Source of the DNA: Aquimarina sp. BL5
GTDB lineage: Bacteria > Bacteroidota > Bacteroidia > Flavobacteriales > Flavobacteriaceae
DNA length: 64,000 nucleotides
Direction of reading: 5' to 3'
NCBI RefSeq assembly: GCF_003443675.1
Contig: NZ_CP031963.1
Location: 1 to 64,000 of the forward strand
The position numbers and the translations under genes are program-made. How positions within the stretch are numbered: the stretch's first letter is position 1; the number at the start of each line of letters is the position of its first letter. Shown in pieces: positions 38,488 through 41,863 of the stretch. Under the pieces are notes generated by a model. The model had not been told where the DNA came from. It made no database searches and worked only from the letters and a program-made list of their open reading frames with translations.

Positions 38488-38517
38488 AGGTAGCAATTTT
38501 AATTTGCTACCTTTTGT
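38488..38517. terminator. Hairpin at the end of the IS3 orfB gene
   Basis: AAGGTAGCAA pairs with TTGCTACCTT around an AT loop and overlaps the orfB stop at 38499. It can terminate transposase transcription and also shield against read-through from outside. Confidence 0.65.
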
Positions 38518-39323
38518 TTTTTGTAGCTTTTTCTTTTTAATTTATTTTGTTGATGCATTTGATCAGGTGTTAACATTGAATTAGATAAATGAGGTCTTAT
38601 CTGATTATAAATGCGGATTGCATTTTGAACCAGTTTGGTTTTGATTTGCATTGAAGTATCATACTTGTCAATAGCAAATTCTTGTTTAAGAATTCCATTA
38701 ATTCTTTCTGCTATGGCATTTTCGTAAGGGTCATATTTTTCAGTCATACTAGGGCTAATATTATTGATGTTTAATGTTTTTTGATATTCATTGGAACAAT
38801 ACTGTAATCCTCTATCGGAATGATGAATTATAGGTTTTTCATTATAATCTCTATTAGAAATAGCCATATCTAAAGCTGTTAAAGATCCTTTTACACTTAG
38901 ACTATTTGATACATTATATCCCATTATTTTTTTAGAATAAGCATCCGTGATTAAAGCCAAATAACATGGATTTTCCCTATTTCCTATATAAGTTATATCA
39001 CTGACCCATACTTGTTCTGGTCTGATAAATTCAACATCTTTTATTCGATTTTTATGTTTTCTAAATCTATGATGAGAATCCGTAGTTACATGATAGTTCT
39101 TTTTAGGTAAAATCAACAAGTTATTAGCCTTTAGTATTTTAAATAGCTTATCGCGACCAACTCCGATTACTTTGAGTTGAGATTTTAAAAGATGAAATAA
39201 TTTTCTTGTACCGATTCTAGGCATTGATATGCGAATGGTATTTACTAAATCAATTACCTTTTTACTTAGTTTTTGTTTGTCTTGATAAGACCGAATAGCT
39301 CTATAATACACCTGTCTATTCAC
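38499..39323 (-). CDS. IS3-family transposase OrfB (DDE integrase core)
   Basis: The frame of 274 residues has an HTH_21 region (TIRISMPRIGTRKLFHLL) and the rve/DDE core with Asp109 (VWVSDITYIG), Asp170 (HHSDRGLQY) and Glu206 (NAIAERING). The frame is open upstream of the GTG at 39323 (ESITATCDLLGVNRQ) and overlaps the end of orfA in the -1 frame, so the active enzyme is most likely an OrfAB fusion made by -1 ribosomal frameshifting at the A-rich GAAAAAC near 39359-39365. Confidence 0.92.
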   Translation of the reverse strand: MNRQVYYRAIRSYQDKQKLSKKVIDLVNTIRISMPRIGTRKLFHLLKSQLKVIGVGRDKLFKILKANNLLILPKKNYHVTTDSHHRFRKHKNRIKDVEFIRPEQVWVSDITYIGNRENPCYLALITDAYSKKIMGYNVSNSLSVKGSLTALDMAISNRDYNEKPIIHHSDRGLQYCSNEYQKTLNINNISPSMTEKYDPYENAIAERINGILKQEFAIDKYDTSMQIKTKLVQNAIRIYNQIRPHLSNSMLTPDQMHQQNKLKRKSYKKQKVAN

Positions 39324-39346
39324 CCCGAGTAAATCACAGGTAGCAG

Positions 39347-39787
39347 TTATGCTTTCTTGTTTTTCTTGGCTATATTTTTCGATAACTCGGGTACGTGCTT
39401 TTTTCTGATCGGAATATTAAATTCCTCTTCGGCGATATCAATCATCATATCAAATATAATTGCTTTCTTATCCGCACGCTCTGCTAAAAATTCAGCTCTT
39501 GCTTTTTGTTTCTCTAAAAGCTTGACTTGCTGTTCTAATTCTAAAATACGTTGTTCAGGTGTTTTGGACATGGATCTATTTACACTAAAATCATAATCAA
39601 ATTTACCATATTTTTTTAACCAAGTGCGAATCGTAGATCTTGCTTGAATACCATACTTATCCAAAGCTTGAGTTCTTGTTAATAAGCCTTGTTCAATCTC
39701 TTGAACAACTTGTAGCTTAAAGGATAAACTGTAATCCTTCTGTGTACGCTTTACATAATTTGAATGTAATGACTCCATAAATAACAT
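39347..39787 (-). CDS. IS3-family transposase OrfA (helix-turn-helix)
   Basis: The product has the IS150-type HTH (YSLSFKLQVVQEIEQG, RTQALDKYGIQARSTIRTWLKKYG) and a leucine-zipper-like coiled coil (RILELEQQVKLLEKQKARAE). The frame opens further up, but the terminal repeat ends at 39793, so the start must be the ATG at 39787 or at 39778. OrfA binds the ends and is joined to OrfB by frameshifting. Confidence 0.88.
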   Translation of the reverse strand: MLFMESLHSNYVKRTQKDYSLSFKLQVVQEIEQGLLTRTQALDKYGIQARSTIRTWLKKYGKFDYDFSVNRSMSKTPEQRILELEQQVKLLEKQKARAEFLAERADKKAIIFDMMIDIAEEEFNIPIRKKHVPELSKNIAKKNKKA

Positions 39788-39829
39788 TTTAGTGTAACGA
39801 TATTTCAGGACGAGACAGGTATTATATTT

Positions 39830-39862
39830 TAAAACCATCCGTTTTAGCGGATGGTTTTTTTT
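39830..39862 (+). terminator. Terminator cut off from its gene by the IS3 insertion
   Basis: AAAACCATCCG pairs with CGGATGGTTTT, followed by eight or more T. It faces the plus strand with no plus-strand gene before it except the lipoprotein gene on the far side of the IS, so it is probably that gene's original terminator. Confidence 0.75.
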
Positions 39863-40028
39863 GATTTTTTGATTTCTGATTATCAATAATTTGTATGTTA
39901 AGTAAGTCTGCTGTCCAGAGATAAATTTCTGGTGTTGATAATGAAAAAACTATCCTTTTTGGGTGGGAGAATGTTCAGTCTTTTGATTTATCATTGTATG
40001 AAGAGATTTATTAATTTTTATTTTAATT

Positions 40029-40289: not shown

Positions 40290-40386
40290 TTATAAAATTG
40301 CGGTAAAAGCTTTACGAGTATTTGACACGGCAATTACTTAAAACAAAAAAAAGCCCATAGAAATAAGGGTTTTATCGAATTAGTGT

Positions 40387-40434
40387 AGCGAGAGGGATGC
40401 ACGACCTCCGTCCGCCTCAGGCGGATATGAATCC
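40387..40434 (-). other. tRNA-Met 3'-half-like fragment in unit 1
   Basis: Read on the minus strand it begins GGATTCATA, matching the tRNA anticodon region, continues with a GTCCGC-type palindrome in place of the anticodon 3' strand, then AGGTC and the acceptor end CTCTCGCTA. The T-arm is replaced by a short GTGCATCC stretch. It cannot fold as a tRNA. The terminator after it (40345-40374) has a weaker stem than in the other units. Confidence 0.75.
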
Positions 40435-40439
40435 TTCTG

Positions 40440-40691
40440 TTATTTGATCAATTTATCTTTGACCCATTCTCTCCCTTTGCCAGATTTCAAAAACTTTTCT
40501 CTAACTAATGCTTCTTTTTTGGTTTCAACAACCTCCAGATAGACAACCTTCCAAGGTCTATATCGTATTGTAAATCCTTTTGTCGCTAATTGATTGTGAG
40601 ATCTGAAACGACTTATTAAATCAGAAGTGTATCCGGTATAACTTTTGTCATACTTTTCAGAATATAATATGTAGACTACAAATTCCTTCAT
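40440..40691 (-). CDS. GIY-YIG nuclease domain protein, array copy 1 (distal)
   Basis: The 83-residue protein is a minimal GIY-YIG (URI/YhbQ-type) domain: VYIL (residues 6-9) in place of GIY, YTG (18-20) in place of YIG, the catalytic Arg28 in LISRFRSHN, and the conserved Glu65 in ALVREKFLKSGKG. Such domains cut DNA with one metal ion and usually need a partner domain to choose their site; none is attached here. It is the copy farthest from the tRNA promoter. Copies 1 and 4 are identical in protein sequence. Confidence 0.85.
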   Translation of the reverse strand: MKEFVVYILYSEKYDKSYTGYTSDLISRFRSHNQLATKGFTIRYRPWKVVYLEVVETKKEALVREKFLKSGKGREWVKDKLIK

Positions 40692-40738
40692 AAAAACAAA
40701 AAAAGCCCTTATTTCTAAGGGCTTTATCGAATTAGTGT

Positions 40739-40786
40739 AGCGAGAGGGGGGCGCGACCTCCGTCCGCCTCAGGCGGATATGAATCC
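40739..40786 (-). other. tRNA-Met 3'-half-like fragment in unit 2
   Basis: It has the same layout as in unit 1: GGATTCATA, the GTCCGC-type palindrome, AGGTC, then GCGCCCCCCTCTCGCT. It is followed on the minus strand by the flank ACACTAATTCG and a perfect terminator stem. Confidence 0.75.
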
Positions 40787-40791
40787 TTCTG

Positions 40792-41043
40792 TTATTTGAT
40801 CAATTTATCTTTGCCCCATTCTCTTCCTTTGCCAGATTTCAAAAACTTTTCTCTAACTAATGCTTCTTTTTTAGTTTTAAGAAACTCCAGATAGACCACT
40901 TTCCAAGGTCTATACCGTATTGTAAATCCTTTTGTCGCTAATTGATTGTGAGATCTAAAAAGACTTATTAAATCAGAAGTGTATCCGGTATAACTTTTGT
41001 CATACTTTTCAGAATATAATATGTAGACTACAAATTCCTTCAT
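40792..41043 (-). CDS. GIY-YIG nuclease domain protein, array copy 2, catalytic Arg lost
   Basis: It is the same 83-residue protein as its neighbours but with several changes: Arg28 to Leu (LISLFRSHN; codon CGT to CTT), YLEFLKTKKEA instead of YLEVVETKKEA, and Gly for Val at residue 77. Arg28 corresponds to the conserved active-site arginine of GIY-YIG enzymes, so this copy is predicted to bind without cutting or to be decaying. The reading frame stays intact, which weakly suggests retention or recency. Confidence 0.82.
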   Translation of the reverse strand: MKEFVVYILYSEKYDKSYTGYTSDLISLFRSHNQLATKGFTIRYRPWKVVYLEFLKTKKEALVREKFLKSGKGREWGKDKLIK

Positions 41044-41089
41044 AAAACAAAAAAAGCCCTTAAAAGTAAGGGCTTTATCGAATTAGTGT

Positions 41090-41135
41090 AGCGAGGGGGG
41101 TACGACCTCCGTCCGCCTCAGGCGGATATGAATCC
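41090..41135 (-). other. tRNA-Met 3'-half-like fragment in unit 3
   Basis: It begins GGATTCATA and ends CCCCCCTCGCTACACTAATTCG; it is two bases shorter than the others in the acceptor part (CTCGCT rather than CTCTCGCT). Confidence 0.75.
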
Positions 41136-41140
41136 TTCTA

Positions 41141-41392
41141 TTATTTGATCAATTTATCTTTGACCCATTCTCTCCCTTTGCCAGATTTCAAAAACTTTTC
41201 TCTAACTAAAGCTTCTTTTTGGGTTTCAACAACCTCCAGATAGACAACCTTCCAAGGTCTATACCGTATTGTAAATCCTTTTGTAGCTAATTGATTGTGA
41301 GATCTGAAACGACTTATTAAATCAGAAGTGTATCCGGTATAACTTTTGTCATACTTTTCAGAATATAATATGTAGACTACAAATTCCTTCAT
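41141..41392 (-). CDS. GIY-YIG nuclease domain protein, array copy 3
   Basis: The 83-residue protein differs from copies 1 and 4 only by Gln instead of Lys at residue 58 (VVETQKEALV). All catalytic-motif residues (VYIL, YTG, Arg28, Glu65) are present, so it should be active if the others are. Only the T-rich tract of the terminator separates it from the unit before it on the minus strand. Confidence 0.85.
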   Translation of the reverse strand: MKEFVVYILYSEKYDKSYTGYTSDLISRFRSHNQLATKGFTIRYRPWKVVYLEVVETQKEALVREKFLKSGKGREWVKDKLIK

Positions 41393-41439
41393 AAAAACAA
41401 AAAAAGCCCTTAGAAATAAGGGCTTTATCGAATTAGTGT

Positions 41440-41486
41440 AGCGAGAGGGGGTATGACCTCCGTCCGCCTCAGACGGATATGAATCC
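41440..41486 (-). other. tRNA-Met 3'-half-like fragment in unit 4
   Basis: It begins GGATTCATATCC, carries the palindrome with one change (GTCTGAGGCGGAC), then AGGTCATACCCCCTCTCGCTA. It is the copy nearest the complete tRNA gene. Confidence 0.75.
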
Positions 41487-41491
41487 TTCTG

Positions 41492-41743
41492 TTATTTGAT
41501 CAATTTATCTTTGACCCATTCTCTCCCTTTGCCAGATTTCAAAAACTTTTCTCTAACTAAAGCTTCTTTTTTGGTTTCAACAACCTCCAGATAGACAACC
41601 TTCCAAGGTCTATACCGTATTGTAAATCCTTTTGTAGCTAATTGATTGTGAGATCTGAAACGACTTATTAAATCAGAAGTGTATCCGGTATAACTTTTGT
41701 CATACTTTTCAGAATATAATATGTAGACTACAAATTCCTTCAT
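41492..41743 (-). CDS. GIY-YIG nuclease domain protein, array copy 4 (proximal to tRNA)
   Basis: The ATG at 41743 gives the same 83-residue protein as copy 1, with intact VYIL, YTG, Arg28 and Glu65. The frame is open back to 41806, but that stretch overlaps the tRNA 3' end and the terminator and is not part of the other copies, so it is not coding. The ATG follows the tRNA terminator T run directly, so expression would rely on read-through from the tRNA promoter or on an unseen internal promoter. Confidence 0.85.
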   Translation of the reverse strand: MKEFVVYILYSEKYDKSYTGYTSDLISRFRSHNQLATKGFTIRYRPWKVVYLEVVETKKEALVREKFLKSGKGREWVKDKLIK

Positions 41744-41748
41744 AAAAA

Positions 41749-41778
41749 CAAAAAAAGCCCTTAAAAATAAGGGCTTTA
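41749..41778 (-). terminator. Terminator behind tRNA-Met
   Basis: On the minus strand AAAGCCCTTA pairs with TAAGGGCTTT around TTTT, followed by seven T. The same hairpin recurs in every unit of the array. Confidence 0.85.
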
Positions 41779-41789
41779 TCGAATTAGTG

Positions 41790-41863
41790 TAGCGAGAGGG
41801 GGGCACGATCCCCCGACCTCTGGGTTATGAATCCAACGCTCTAACCAGCTGAGCTACCTCGCC
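41790..41863 (-). tRNA. tRNA-Met (anticodon CAT) with atypical T-loop
   Basis: On the minus strand a cloverleaf can be drawn: acceptor GGCGAGG with TCTCGCT (two G:T pairs), D-arm GCTC/GAGC, anticodon arm TTGGA-TTCATAA-CCCAG with CAT, variable AGGTC, and T-stem GGGGG/CCCCC. The T-loop reads ATCGTGC, not the usual TTCGAAT-type, so T54 and A58 are swapped to A and T. CCA is not encoded. A strong promoter lies upstream. The gene is clearly a tRNA in origin; whether it is charged and used is uncertain. Confidence 0.8.

Follow-up and report, generated by a model that had tools for sequence, protein, structure and literature searches.

The window analysed here is a stretch of 64,000 nucleotides from Aquimarina sp. 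BL5 (contig NZ_CP031963.1, positions 1 to 64,000), in which a tRNA-Met gene is followed by a tandem array of small genes encoding GIY-YIG nucleases. A first-pass annotation, made from the letters of the DNA, had described four head-to-tail units of about 350 bp behind this tRNA, each with an 83-codon GIY-YIG gene. This first observation was confirmed: the four units lie on the minus strand, Tandem Repeats Finder returned a period of 351 with 4.2 copies and 94% matches (score 2670, 40340-41808), and the Pfam GIY-YIG domain was found in 4/4 open reading frames (ORFs). As listed below, each unit combines an 83-aa GIY-YIG ORF, a copy of the 3' half of tRNA-Met, which begins GGATTCATA and ends CTCGCTACACTAATTCG, and a copy of the tRNA terminator hairpin. 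The annotation had placed such a hairpin in each unit, and the copies were indeed recovered, the most distal one in a degraded form. For the unit 1 ORF, the program-made list has a start further upstream, giving 104 aa.

41789-41863, minus strand: intact tRNA-Met(CAT), head of the array (ARAGORN; Rfam RF00005, 55.1 bits)
41754-41777, minus strand: terminator hairpin of the tRNA, start of unit 1 (sequence)
41492-41743, minus strand: GIY-YIG ORF of unit 1, 83 aa (ORF, Pfam)
41429-41486, minus strand: tRNA-Met 3'-half copy of unit 1, with the palindrome at 41463-41477 (TCCGTCTGAGGCGGA) (sequence)
41403-41426, minus strand: terminator copy behind unit 1 (sequence)
41141-41392, minus strand: GIY-YIG ORF of unit 2, 83 aa (ORF, Pfam)
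41079-41135, minus strand: tRNA-Met 3'-half copy of unit 2, with the palindrome at 41112-41126 (sequence)
41053-41076, minus strand: terminator copy behind unit 2 (sequence)
40792-41043, minus strand: GIY-YIG ORF of unit 3, 83 aa, the most diverged copy (ORF, Pfam)
40728-40786, minus strand: tRNA-Met 3'-half copy of unit 3, with the palindrome at 40763-40777 (sequence)
40702-40725, minus strand: terminator copy behind unit 3 (sequence)
40440-40691, minus strand: GIY-YIG ORF of unit 4, 83 aa, the most distal (ORF, Pfam)
40376-40434, minus strand: tRNA-Met 3'-half copy of unit 4, with the palindrome at 40411-40425 (sequence)
40350-40373, minus strand: most distal terminator copy, degraded, end of the array (sequence)

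The copied fragment is not a plain 3' half. In all four copies a 15-nt palindrome, TCCGCCTGAGGCGGA, replaces the 3' side of the anticodon arm and the variable loop of tRNA-Met (with one mismatch in the copy of unit 1), and the T-arm of the copy is unlike that of the intact tRNA in 4/4 units. The annotation had given the start and the end of the fragment correctly and had missed this replacement. The units are bracketed by the tRNA or by tRNA copies, not by repetitive extragenic palindromes (REPs). The intact tRNA-Met (41789-41863) has an unusual T-arm, GGGGGATCGTGCCCCCC, and the same T-arm is seen in the genomes with empty sites described below.

We then characterized the encoded protein. GIY-YIG (PF01541) was the only Pfam domain in the four ORFs (E 4e-16 to 1e-13, 51.7-59.4 bits for a cut-off of 22.6), with no tyrosine transposase of the IS200/IS605 type; each unit holds this one ORF, with no tyrosine or serine integrase, and NCBIfam had no family for the two window ORFs scanned. 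Y7, Y18, R28, H32 and E65 were invariant in 28 sequences chosen from 154 matches, and the conserved Tyr, Tyr, Arg and Glu of GIY-YIG proteins are what we take to be the catalytic residues. Comparison of the window copy with the copies of G045 and G046 (G and L numbers designate our genomes and loci) gave a dN/dS of 0.06-0.09, dS being saturated for the copies of G015 and G030; these values indicate that the function of the protein is kept under strong purifying selection. The predicted structure had a mean pLDDT of 89.4. By sequence, the nearest structures were 1zg2 (E 9.5e-07) and 1ywl (1e-06), both UPF0213, and SLX1 (7wme, 1.3e-04); Foldseek with the protein model returned 1zg2 first (E 6.9e-04), then SLX1 chains (E 5.5e-03 and weaker). 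The window protein is alike, in sequence and fold, to the single-domain GIY-YIG family UPF0213 and to SLX1, a DNA nuclease that acts on branched DNA together with SLX4. We know of no mobile-element context for either.

A relative of the protein was found at E 0.001 or better in 42 of 66 Aquimarina genomes, with close relatives behind the same tRNA-Met in G045, G046, G015, G030, G050 and G028, the copies of the last two being broken. For the wider Met branch, we analyzed the best 80 of 314 relatives from a profile scan of genome contigs, four of them Aquimarina from the earlier 66-genome search; here as throughout, the fetched loci are the best-scoring ones. An intact tRNA-Met was present within 500 bp in 66/80 loci and at 617 bp in one more (L158), and in 67/67 it was upstream and on the same strand. 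Eight of the 13 loci without a near intact tRNA-Met have ORFs that start at most about 350 bp from a contig end. The remaining five (L118, L132, L148, L175, L178) show just upstream a piece of the tRNA-Met 3' end, from about ten bases to most of the 3' half, least clearly in L118; L148 and L178 have a common flank and are not independent. L132, L148 and L178 lie away from an intact tRNA, yet open with roughly the final ten bases of initiator tRNA-Met, followed by the terminator.

By D-arm sequence, the tRNA at these 67 loci was initiator in 36 and elongator in 31. The copy behind the first full ORF beat every Met tail of the other type in 60/67 loci, tied in four and lost in three; since the fragment best matches the local tRNA, it appears to be copied from that tRNA, initiator or elongator. 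On a protein tree of 65 rows, built from few columns, we counted 10 changes between the two host types, for a mean of about 22 with shuffled labels, so that the trait is, on this tree, clustered yet switches. In Flavobacterium, a proximal terminator, ACACCACTT, accompanies the ORF on both Met tRNA types and the distal flanks mostly differ. In the flank comparison, proximal and distal flanks differed in 15/33 loci (L136, L147, L157 and L171 were excluded because their tRNA-Met genes are in tandem and the wrong upstream spacer was compared). Taken together, the shared terminator, the site-specific distal flanks and the local tRNA copies suggest that the terminator-ORF-palindrome part travels and that the tRNA part seems to come from the target. 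At L119, L124, L170, L172, L174, L190 and L008, the tRNA and the first ORF are separated by palindrome-marked tRNA fragments without an ORF, which resemble non-autonomous units; a regular expression counted such units in 10/67 loci, a figure that may be inflated where tRNA-Met genes are in tandem.

These results bear on an account without mobility, in which a tRNA-linked gene is inherited vertically, is duplicated in tandem by unequal recombination between the repeated tRNA ends, and is occasionally deleted, mimicking empty sites. It would explain the near-identical units and the gene-conversion-like pattern in the window, the repeats supply homology for expansion and loss, and remnants at L191, L205 and L208 show that loss occurs; the tRNA-type hosts are also partly clustered on the tree, the starred branches forcing one change. 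However, it does not sit well with the copying of the local tRNA at two different Met tRNAs, nor with a terminator common to the elements on both together with site-specific distal flanks. The separate clades at many other tRNAs and the empty state of most Aquimarina tRNA-Met sites read (21/30), both presented below, also argue against it, and we regard it as unlikely.

Other clades were found in Aquimarina at tRNA-Asp, Arg(tct), Arg(tcg), Pro, Leu and a second Met. An intact tRNA lay within 500 bp in 31/33 tRNA-clade Aquimarina loci, on the same strand in 31/31; the two exceptions are L009, which lies at the start of a contig, and L055, whose tRNA-Phe-like gene was missed by the tRNA caller. 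This gene (L055 1370-1440; labelled Phe by eye, no ARAGORN call, Ns in the locus) stands beside two units, and its T-arm already has part of the palindrome. L027 was labelled Pro by its fragments, though its nearest called tRNA is Ser. In the wider Flavobacteriales (199 family and 196 order genomes, overlapping, the 30 best loci of each being fetched), 50/60 loci had an intact tRNA within 500 bp, of many isoacceptors and on the same strand in 50/50; this set includes the window itself (L278) and counts one locus twice (L242 and L276). At L011, L015, L033, L051, L056, L064, L065, L084 and L093, units lie on the 5' side of the tRNA and carry a copy of its 5' part. A palindrome was recognized by eye in the copied tRNA of L005-L009, L011, L013-L019, L027, L033, L052-L056, L064, L065, L084, L088, L093, L094 and L106, and an imperfect one in that of L051. 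These palindromes differ from clade to clade and in several clades replace one tRNA arm.

The constant orientation is what an RNA-level system would predict, in which read-through from the tRNA would transcribe the ORF as well, and the nuclease would use the tRNA-like fragment with its hairpin as substrate, decoy or guide. In every pair scored (67/67, 50/50 and 31/31), the ORF shares its strand with the nearest tRNA, and both the strong purifying selection on the protein and the replacement of one tRNA arm by the palindrome in several clades agree with this explanation. We nevertheless consider it improbable: in the window a terminator stands between tRNA and ORF, the sister clade described below is without tRNA and often palindrome-flanked, and the closest structures belong to the UPF0213/SLX1 type, of which SLX1 cuts DNA.

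To look at occupancy, the tRNA-Met was searched in Aquimarina and matched 65/66 genomes. At the 30 best loci, the next 340 or so bases held no ORF trace in 21, the element in six, a broken copy in two and a short remnant in one. The empty loci of G014, G007 and G033 and the occupied locus of G015 agree in the 60 bases upstream, in the tRNA, which is identical, and in the gene that follows downstream. Presence and absence of a nuclease gene at a fixed site in related genomes, the pattern by which homing endonucleases are recognized, was thus observed. According to the first-pass annotation, the unit would be a minimal element, mobile or amplifying, with the 3' region of the tRNA as its target or its source of homology. 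This is supported by the tRNA linkage (67/80 Met loci, 31/33 in Aquimarina, 50/60 in Flavobacteriales, the annotation having asked whether units lie behind tRNA genes), by a copy number that differs between genomes, and by empty sites with the same neighbouring gene. The proposed scope holds for the Met branch and was too narrow overall, since many tRNAs are used, some from the 5' side, and the sister clade is not tRNA-linked and is often palindrome-flanked. The annotation had also named contrary outcomes: relatives found as single genes away from tRNAs, with no empty sites, were not what we observed for the window clade, and an assembly artefact is disfavoured by the same architecture in independent genomes.

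Regarding array growth, we read ten Met arrays with a broken member uncut by a contig or locus end (L111, L119, L139, L148, L156, L158, L159, L163, L164, L177; our own reading). The broken member was the farthest downstream in 10/10, or in 8/8 without L148 and L156, where it is 1.3 kb away, as expected if new units enter beside the tRNA. This downstream-oldest order was not seen among the window's own ORFs. In the genomes G239 and G222, with 15-20 matches each, eight (G239:C34) and seven (G222:C1) of the matches stand in tandem.

Isolated tRNA-Met 3' halves of 44-47 nt were detected 13-75 kb from the tRNA (G053:C1:132323-132367, G024:C1:3271829-3271875, G030:C1:2815474-2815517) and are possibly attachment-site remnants of large integrative elements. 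If they are attachment sites, the arrays too might be leftovers of tyrosine-recombinase elements (integrative and conjugative elements, ICEs) that use the tRNA-Met 3' end for attachment and carry the nuclease gene as a passenger. Such an origin is very unlikely in our view, as each window unit is about 350 bp with a single ORF, GIY-YIG, and has a palindrome within the duplicate; the 5'-side units with duplicated tRNA 5' parts already disfavour it.

On a tree of 113 rows, the tRNA-linked proteins (42) and those not tRNA-linked (71) were parted by one change (branch 96). The tree has 97 columns, SH-aLRT as its sole support measure and several long branches, and its "REP" label covers all Aquimarina rows without tRNA and all plasmid rows, so that the change shows tRNA-linked versus not, and not REP itself. 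L108 was assigned to the sister clade by hand; L009 and L012 (by hand) and L092 and L093 (under 60 aa) were omitted. G013:C1:595761 and G016:C5:158024 were not among the fetched loci, and L101 and L102 gave no match in our own scan. The sister clade is present in 34/66 Aquimarina genomes, and a tRNA was near 0/54 of its Aquimarina loci.

Palindromes of any kind were found upstream of 32, downstream of 20 and on both sides of 11 of 55 sister-clade ORFs, compared with 20/434 control windows. The CGTC-REP form (GTCAT head; typically TGTCATTCCAGCGTAGGCTGGAATCCA) accompanied 20/56 sister-clade Aquimarina ORFs (19 upstream, 16 downstream, 15 both; control 9/437). CGTC-type REPs therefore flank a part of the sister clade, not all of it, and the other ORFs show other palindromes or none. 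The exact REP pattern occurred at 113 sites in the 66 Aquimarina genomes and at none for the reversed control; 17 sites lay within 300 bp of 13/56 sister-clade genes, for 0.012 expected, and 24/34 genomes with a sister-clade gene had the REP versus 7/32 without (p 9e-5, uncorrected for kinship). The tRNA clade was also above control for palindromes (25 upstream and 26 downstream of 39; control 16/296), terminators being counted there.

Among plasmid relatives (18 fetched of 33 matching records, some of them close relatives), palindromes stood on both sides in 12/18 loci (control 13/88) and upstream only in one, with the strict GTCAT tag on both sides in 7/18; no tRNA was called in the 18 loci. 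The genera with palindromes on both sides were Shinella, Sinorhizobium, Neorhizobium, Rhizobium, Azospirillum, Sphingobium, Novosphingobium, Aeromonas and Neisseria; the same test gave no palindrome at the Planktothrix, two Rhizobium, Photobacterium and Spirosoma plasmid loci. Proteobacterial GIY-YIG genes between CGTC-type REPs occur among these records (L221-L238), for example at L228 683-976. One GIY-YIG gene of Azospirillum lipoferum sits between sufB and sufC, and the Planktothrix gene (L221 701-985) lies between a type IIL restriction gene and the DISARM gene drmA, with other repeats around. According to one survey, CGTC REPs seem to be without a dedicated transposase (Di Nocera, 2013; PMC3733652). 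The sister GIY-YIG clade is a candidate enzyme for them, and its frequent flanking by REP-like palindromes suggests that the ancestral substrate was hairpin DNA.

Overall, these comparisons argue that hairpin-associated GIY-YIG nucleases probably form minimal mobile elements, one branch of which would insert at tRNA genes, keep the tRNA and so build arrays. The argument draws on tRNA-specific placement, the kept tRNA, the local tRNA copy, the palindrome within that copy, variable copy number and empty sites. In the Met branch, the element would insert directly behind tRNA-Met with the intact tRNA gene retained; the 3' part of the tRNA would be duplicated downstream, a segment at about positions 38-48 of the duplicate being replaced by the TCCGCC...GGCGGA palindrome. 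The nuclease may cut or nick structured DNA, as a hairpin or cruciform, in the tRNA or in the hairpin-marked copy, and repair against the element-bearing copy could then insert or multiply the element. Because an intact tRNA is left after insertion, the site would stay usable, and a head-to-tail array could grow by further insertions or by recombination between copies.

Several observations weigh against this interpretation. Occupied and empty alleles have the same intact tRNA, which insertion leaves unchanged, and protection of the site is not evident, so classical homing with a destroyed target does not fit in a simple way. The window ORFs have no simple age order, unit 4 being closer than unit 3 to unit 1, which indicates that recombination within the array also acts. 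The first fragment matched the tail of its own tRNA (last 27 nt) at a score of at least 20 of 27 in only 41/67 Met loci, and the palindrome pattern was present in just 51/67. In the other clades, the tRNA copies of L066 and L079 are without a clear palindrome, and L010, L012 and L096 are broken ORFs with no tRNA copy. The clustering of initiator and elongator hosts, with one change forced by the starred branches, and the invariant orientation that an RNA-level system would also produce count on the same side. The structural matches are weak to modest, with one Foldseek match at E < 0.001. Finally, we infer mobility from comparison between genomes, and the mode of cutting is a proposal.

A broader proposal, which we hold tentatively and at somewhat less than even chances, is that these genes form an undescribed class of hairpin-guided GIY-YIG mobile DNA. 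One branch would be the missing mobiliser of CGTC REPs; another would have swapped REPs for tRNA genes, with the tRNA arms as hairpin landing sites, and its elements would be the smallest autonomous ones specific for tRNA genes. The strict REP tag at 20/56 ORFs slightly lowered our estimate for this proposal. If true, it would account for the occurrence of small GIY-YIG genes next to tRNA genes across many Bacteroidota. It would also supply a concrete candidate enzyme for CGTC REPs, which PMC3733652 presents as seemingly without a dedicated transposase. It makes testable the movement of DNA by a nuclease of about 90 residues without transposase or integrase, and the tolerance of tRNA genes to repeated insertion.

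Elsewhere in the window's genome (one contig, 6,011,237 bases), the 83-aa protein had no further match at E 0.001. A search with a relative of the tRNA-Asp type added three distant GIY-YIG genes (217970, 219777, 1399357), and no tRNA was called in their loci of about 3.2 kb; two of them (G000:C1:217970-218155 and 219777-219962) sit among repeats such as AACCCTGAGGTTCTCGAAGGGTGA. The TCCGCC-type palindrome was rejected as a genome-wide REP, as eight other sites in this genome (L037, L038, L041-L044, L046, L047) are without a tRNA fragment by eye. Rfam matches to SpF51, rimP and others fell below the gathering score, which tRNA alone passed, and were set aside. Flavo-1 RNA (RF01705) matched at L025 3020-3104 and at L038 1398-1506, the latter overlapping a TCCGCC palindrome of the window's genome. 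Past the distal end of the array, two adjoining ORFs (38499-39886) resemble by eye a transposase pair of the IS3 type.

With regard to known systems, our searches of open-licence PubMed Central found no prior description of GIY-YIG with REPs, CGTC palindromes or dRS3, and for GIY-YIG beside tRNA genes in Bacteroidetes they gave phage work only. Of 198 papers matched on palindromes and tRNA in flavobacteria, none of the 25 listed fitted by its title. ICEs and genomic islands at tRNA 3' ends duplicate the 3' end and keep the tRNA intact. The window units are alike in both respects; they differ in having no integrase, a length of about 350 bp and a palindrome that replaces part of the duplicate, and a 5' type exists. 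REP/RAYT systems consist of REP palindromes with a tyrosine transposase of the IS200/IS605 type. The sister clade is similar in that a small gene lies in or between palindromic repeats that also occur alone; the enzyme, however, is GIY-YIG and not a tyrosine transposase, and the window branch uses tRNA genes in place of REPs. The tagged palindromes of the sister clade (20/56 ORFs) have a TGTC/CGTC head and a CCA tail, the class reported in PMC3733652 as seemingly without a dedicated transposase. GIY or endonuclease does not occur in the text of a paper on REPs and their tyrosine transposases (PMC12306157).

The closest studied case is SegB, described in PMC13096335 as a free-standing, tRNA-linked GIY-YIG homing endonuclease of T-even phages that drives tandem amplification of the nuclease gene together with tRNA sequence. 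By analogy, the nuclease here could cut near the tRNA and recombination could amplify tRNA-linked segments, with a dosage benefit to the host in place of selfish spread. We assign this a low probability, since the window amplifies fragments and not intact tRNAs, and placement at new tRNAs is the wider pattern. SegB itself is a phage gene whose amplified segment includes the full tRNA, and no hairpin-marked tRNA copy is described in the available sections of that report (PMC13096335). The window element, in comparison, encodes 83 aa, is chromosomal, carries a palindrome in its tRNA copy, and forms repeats that contain 3'-half copies in place of a full tRNA.

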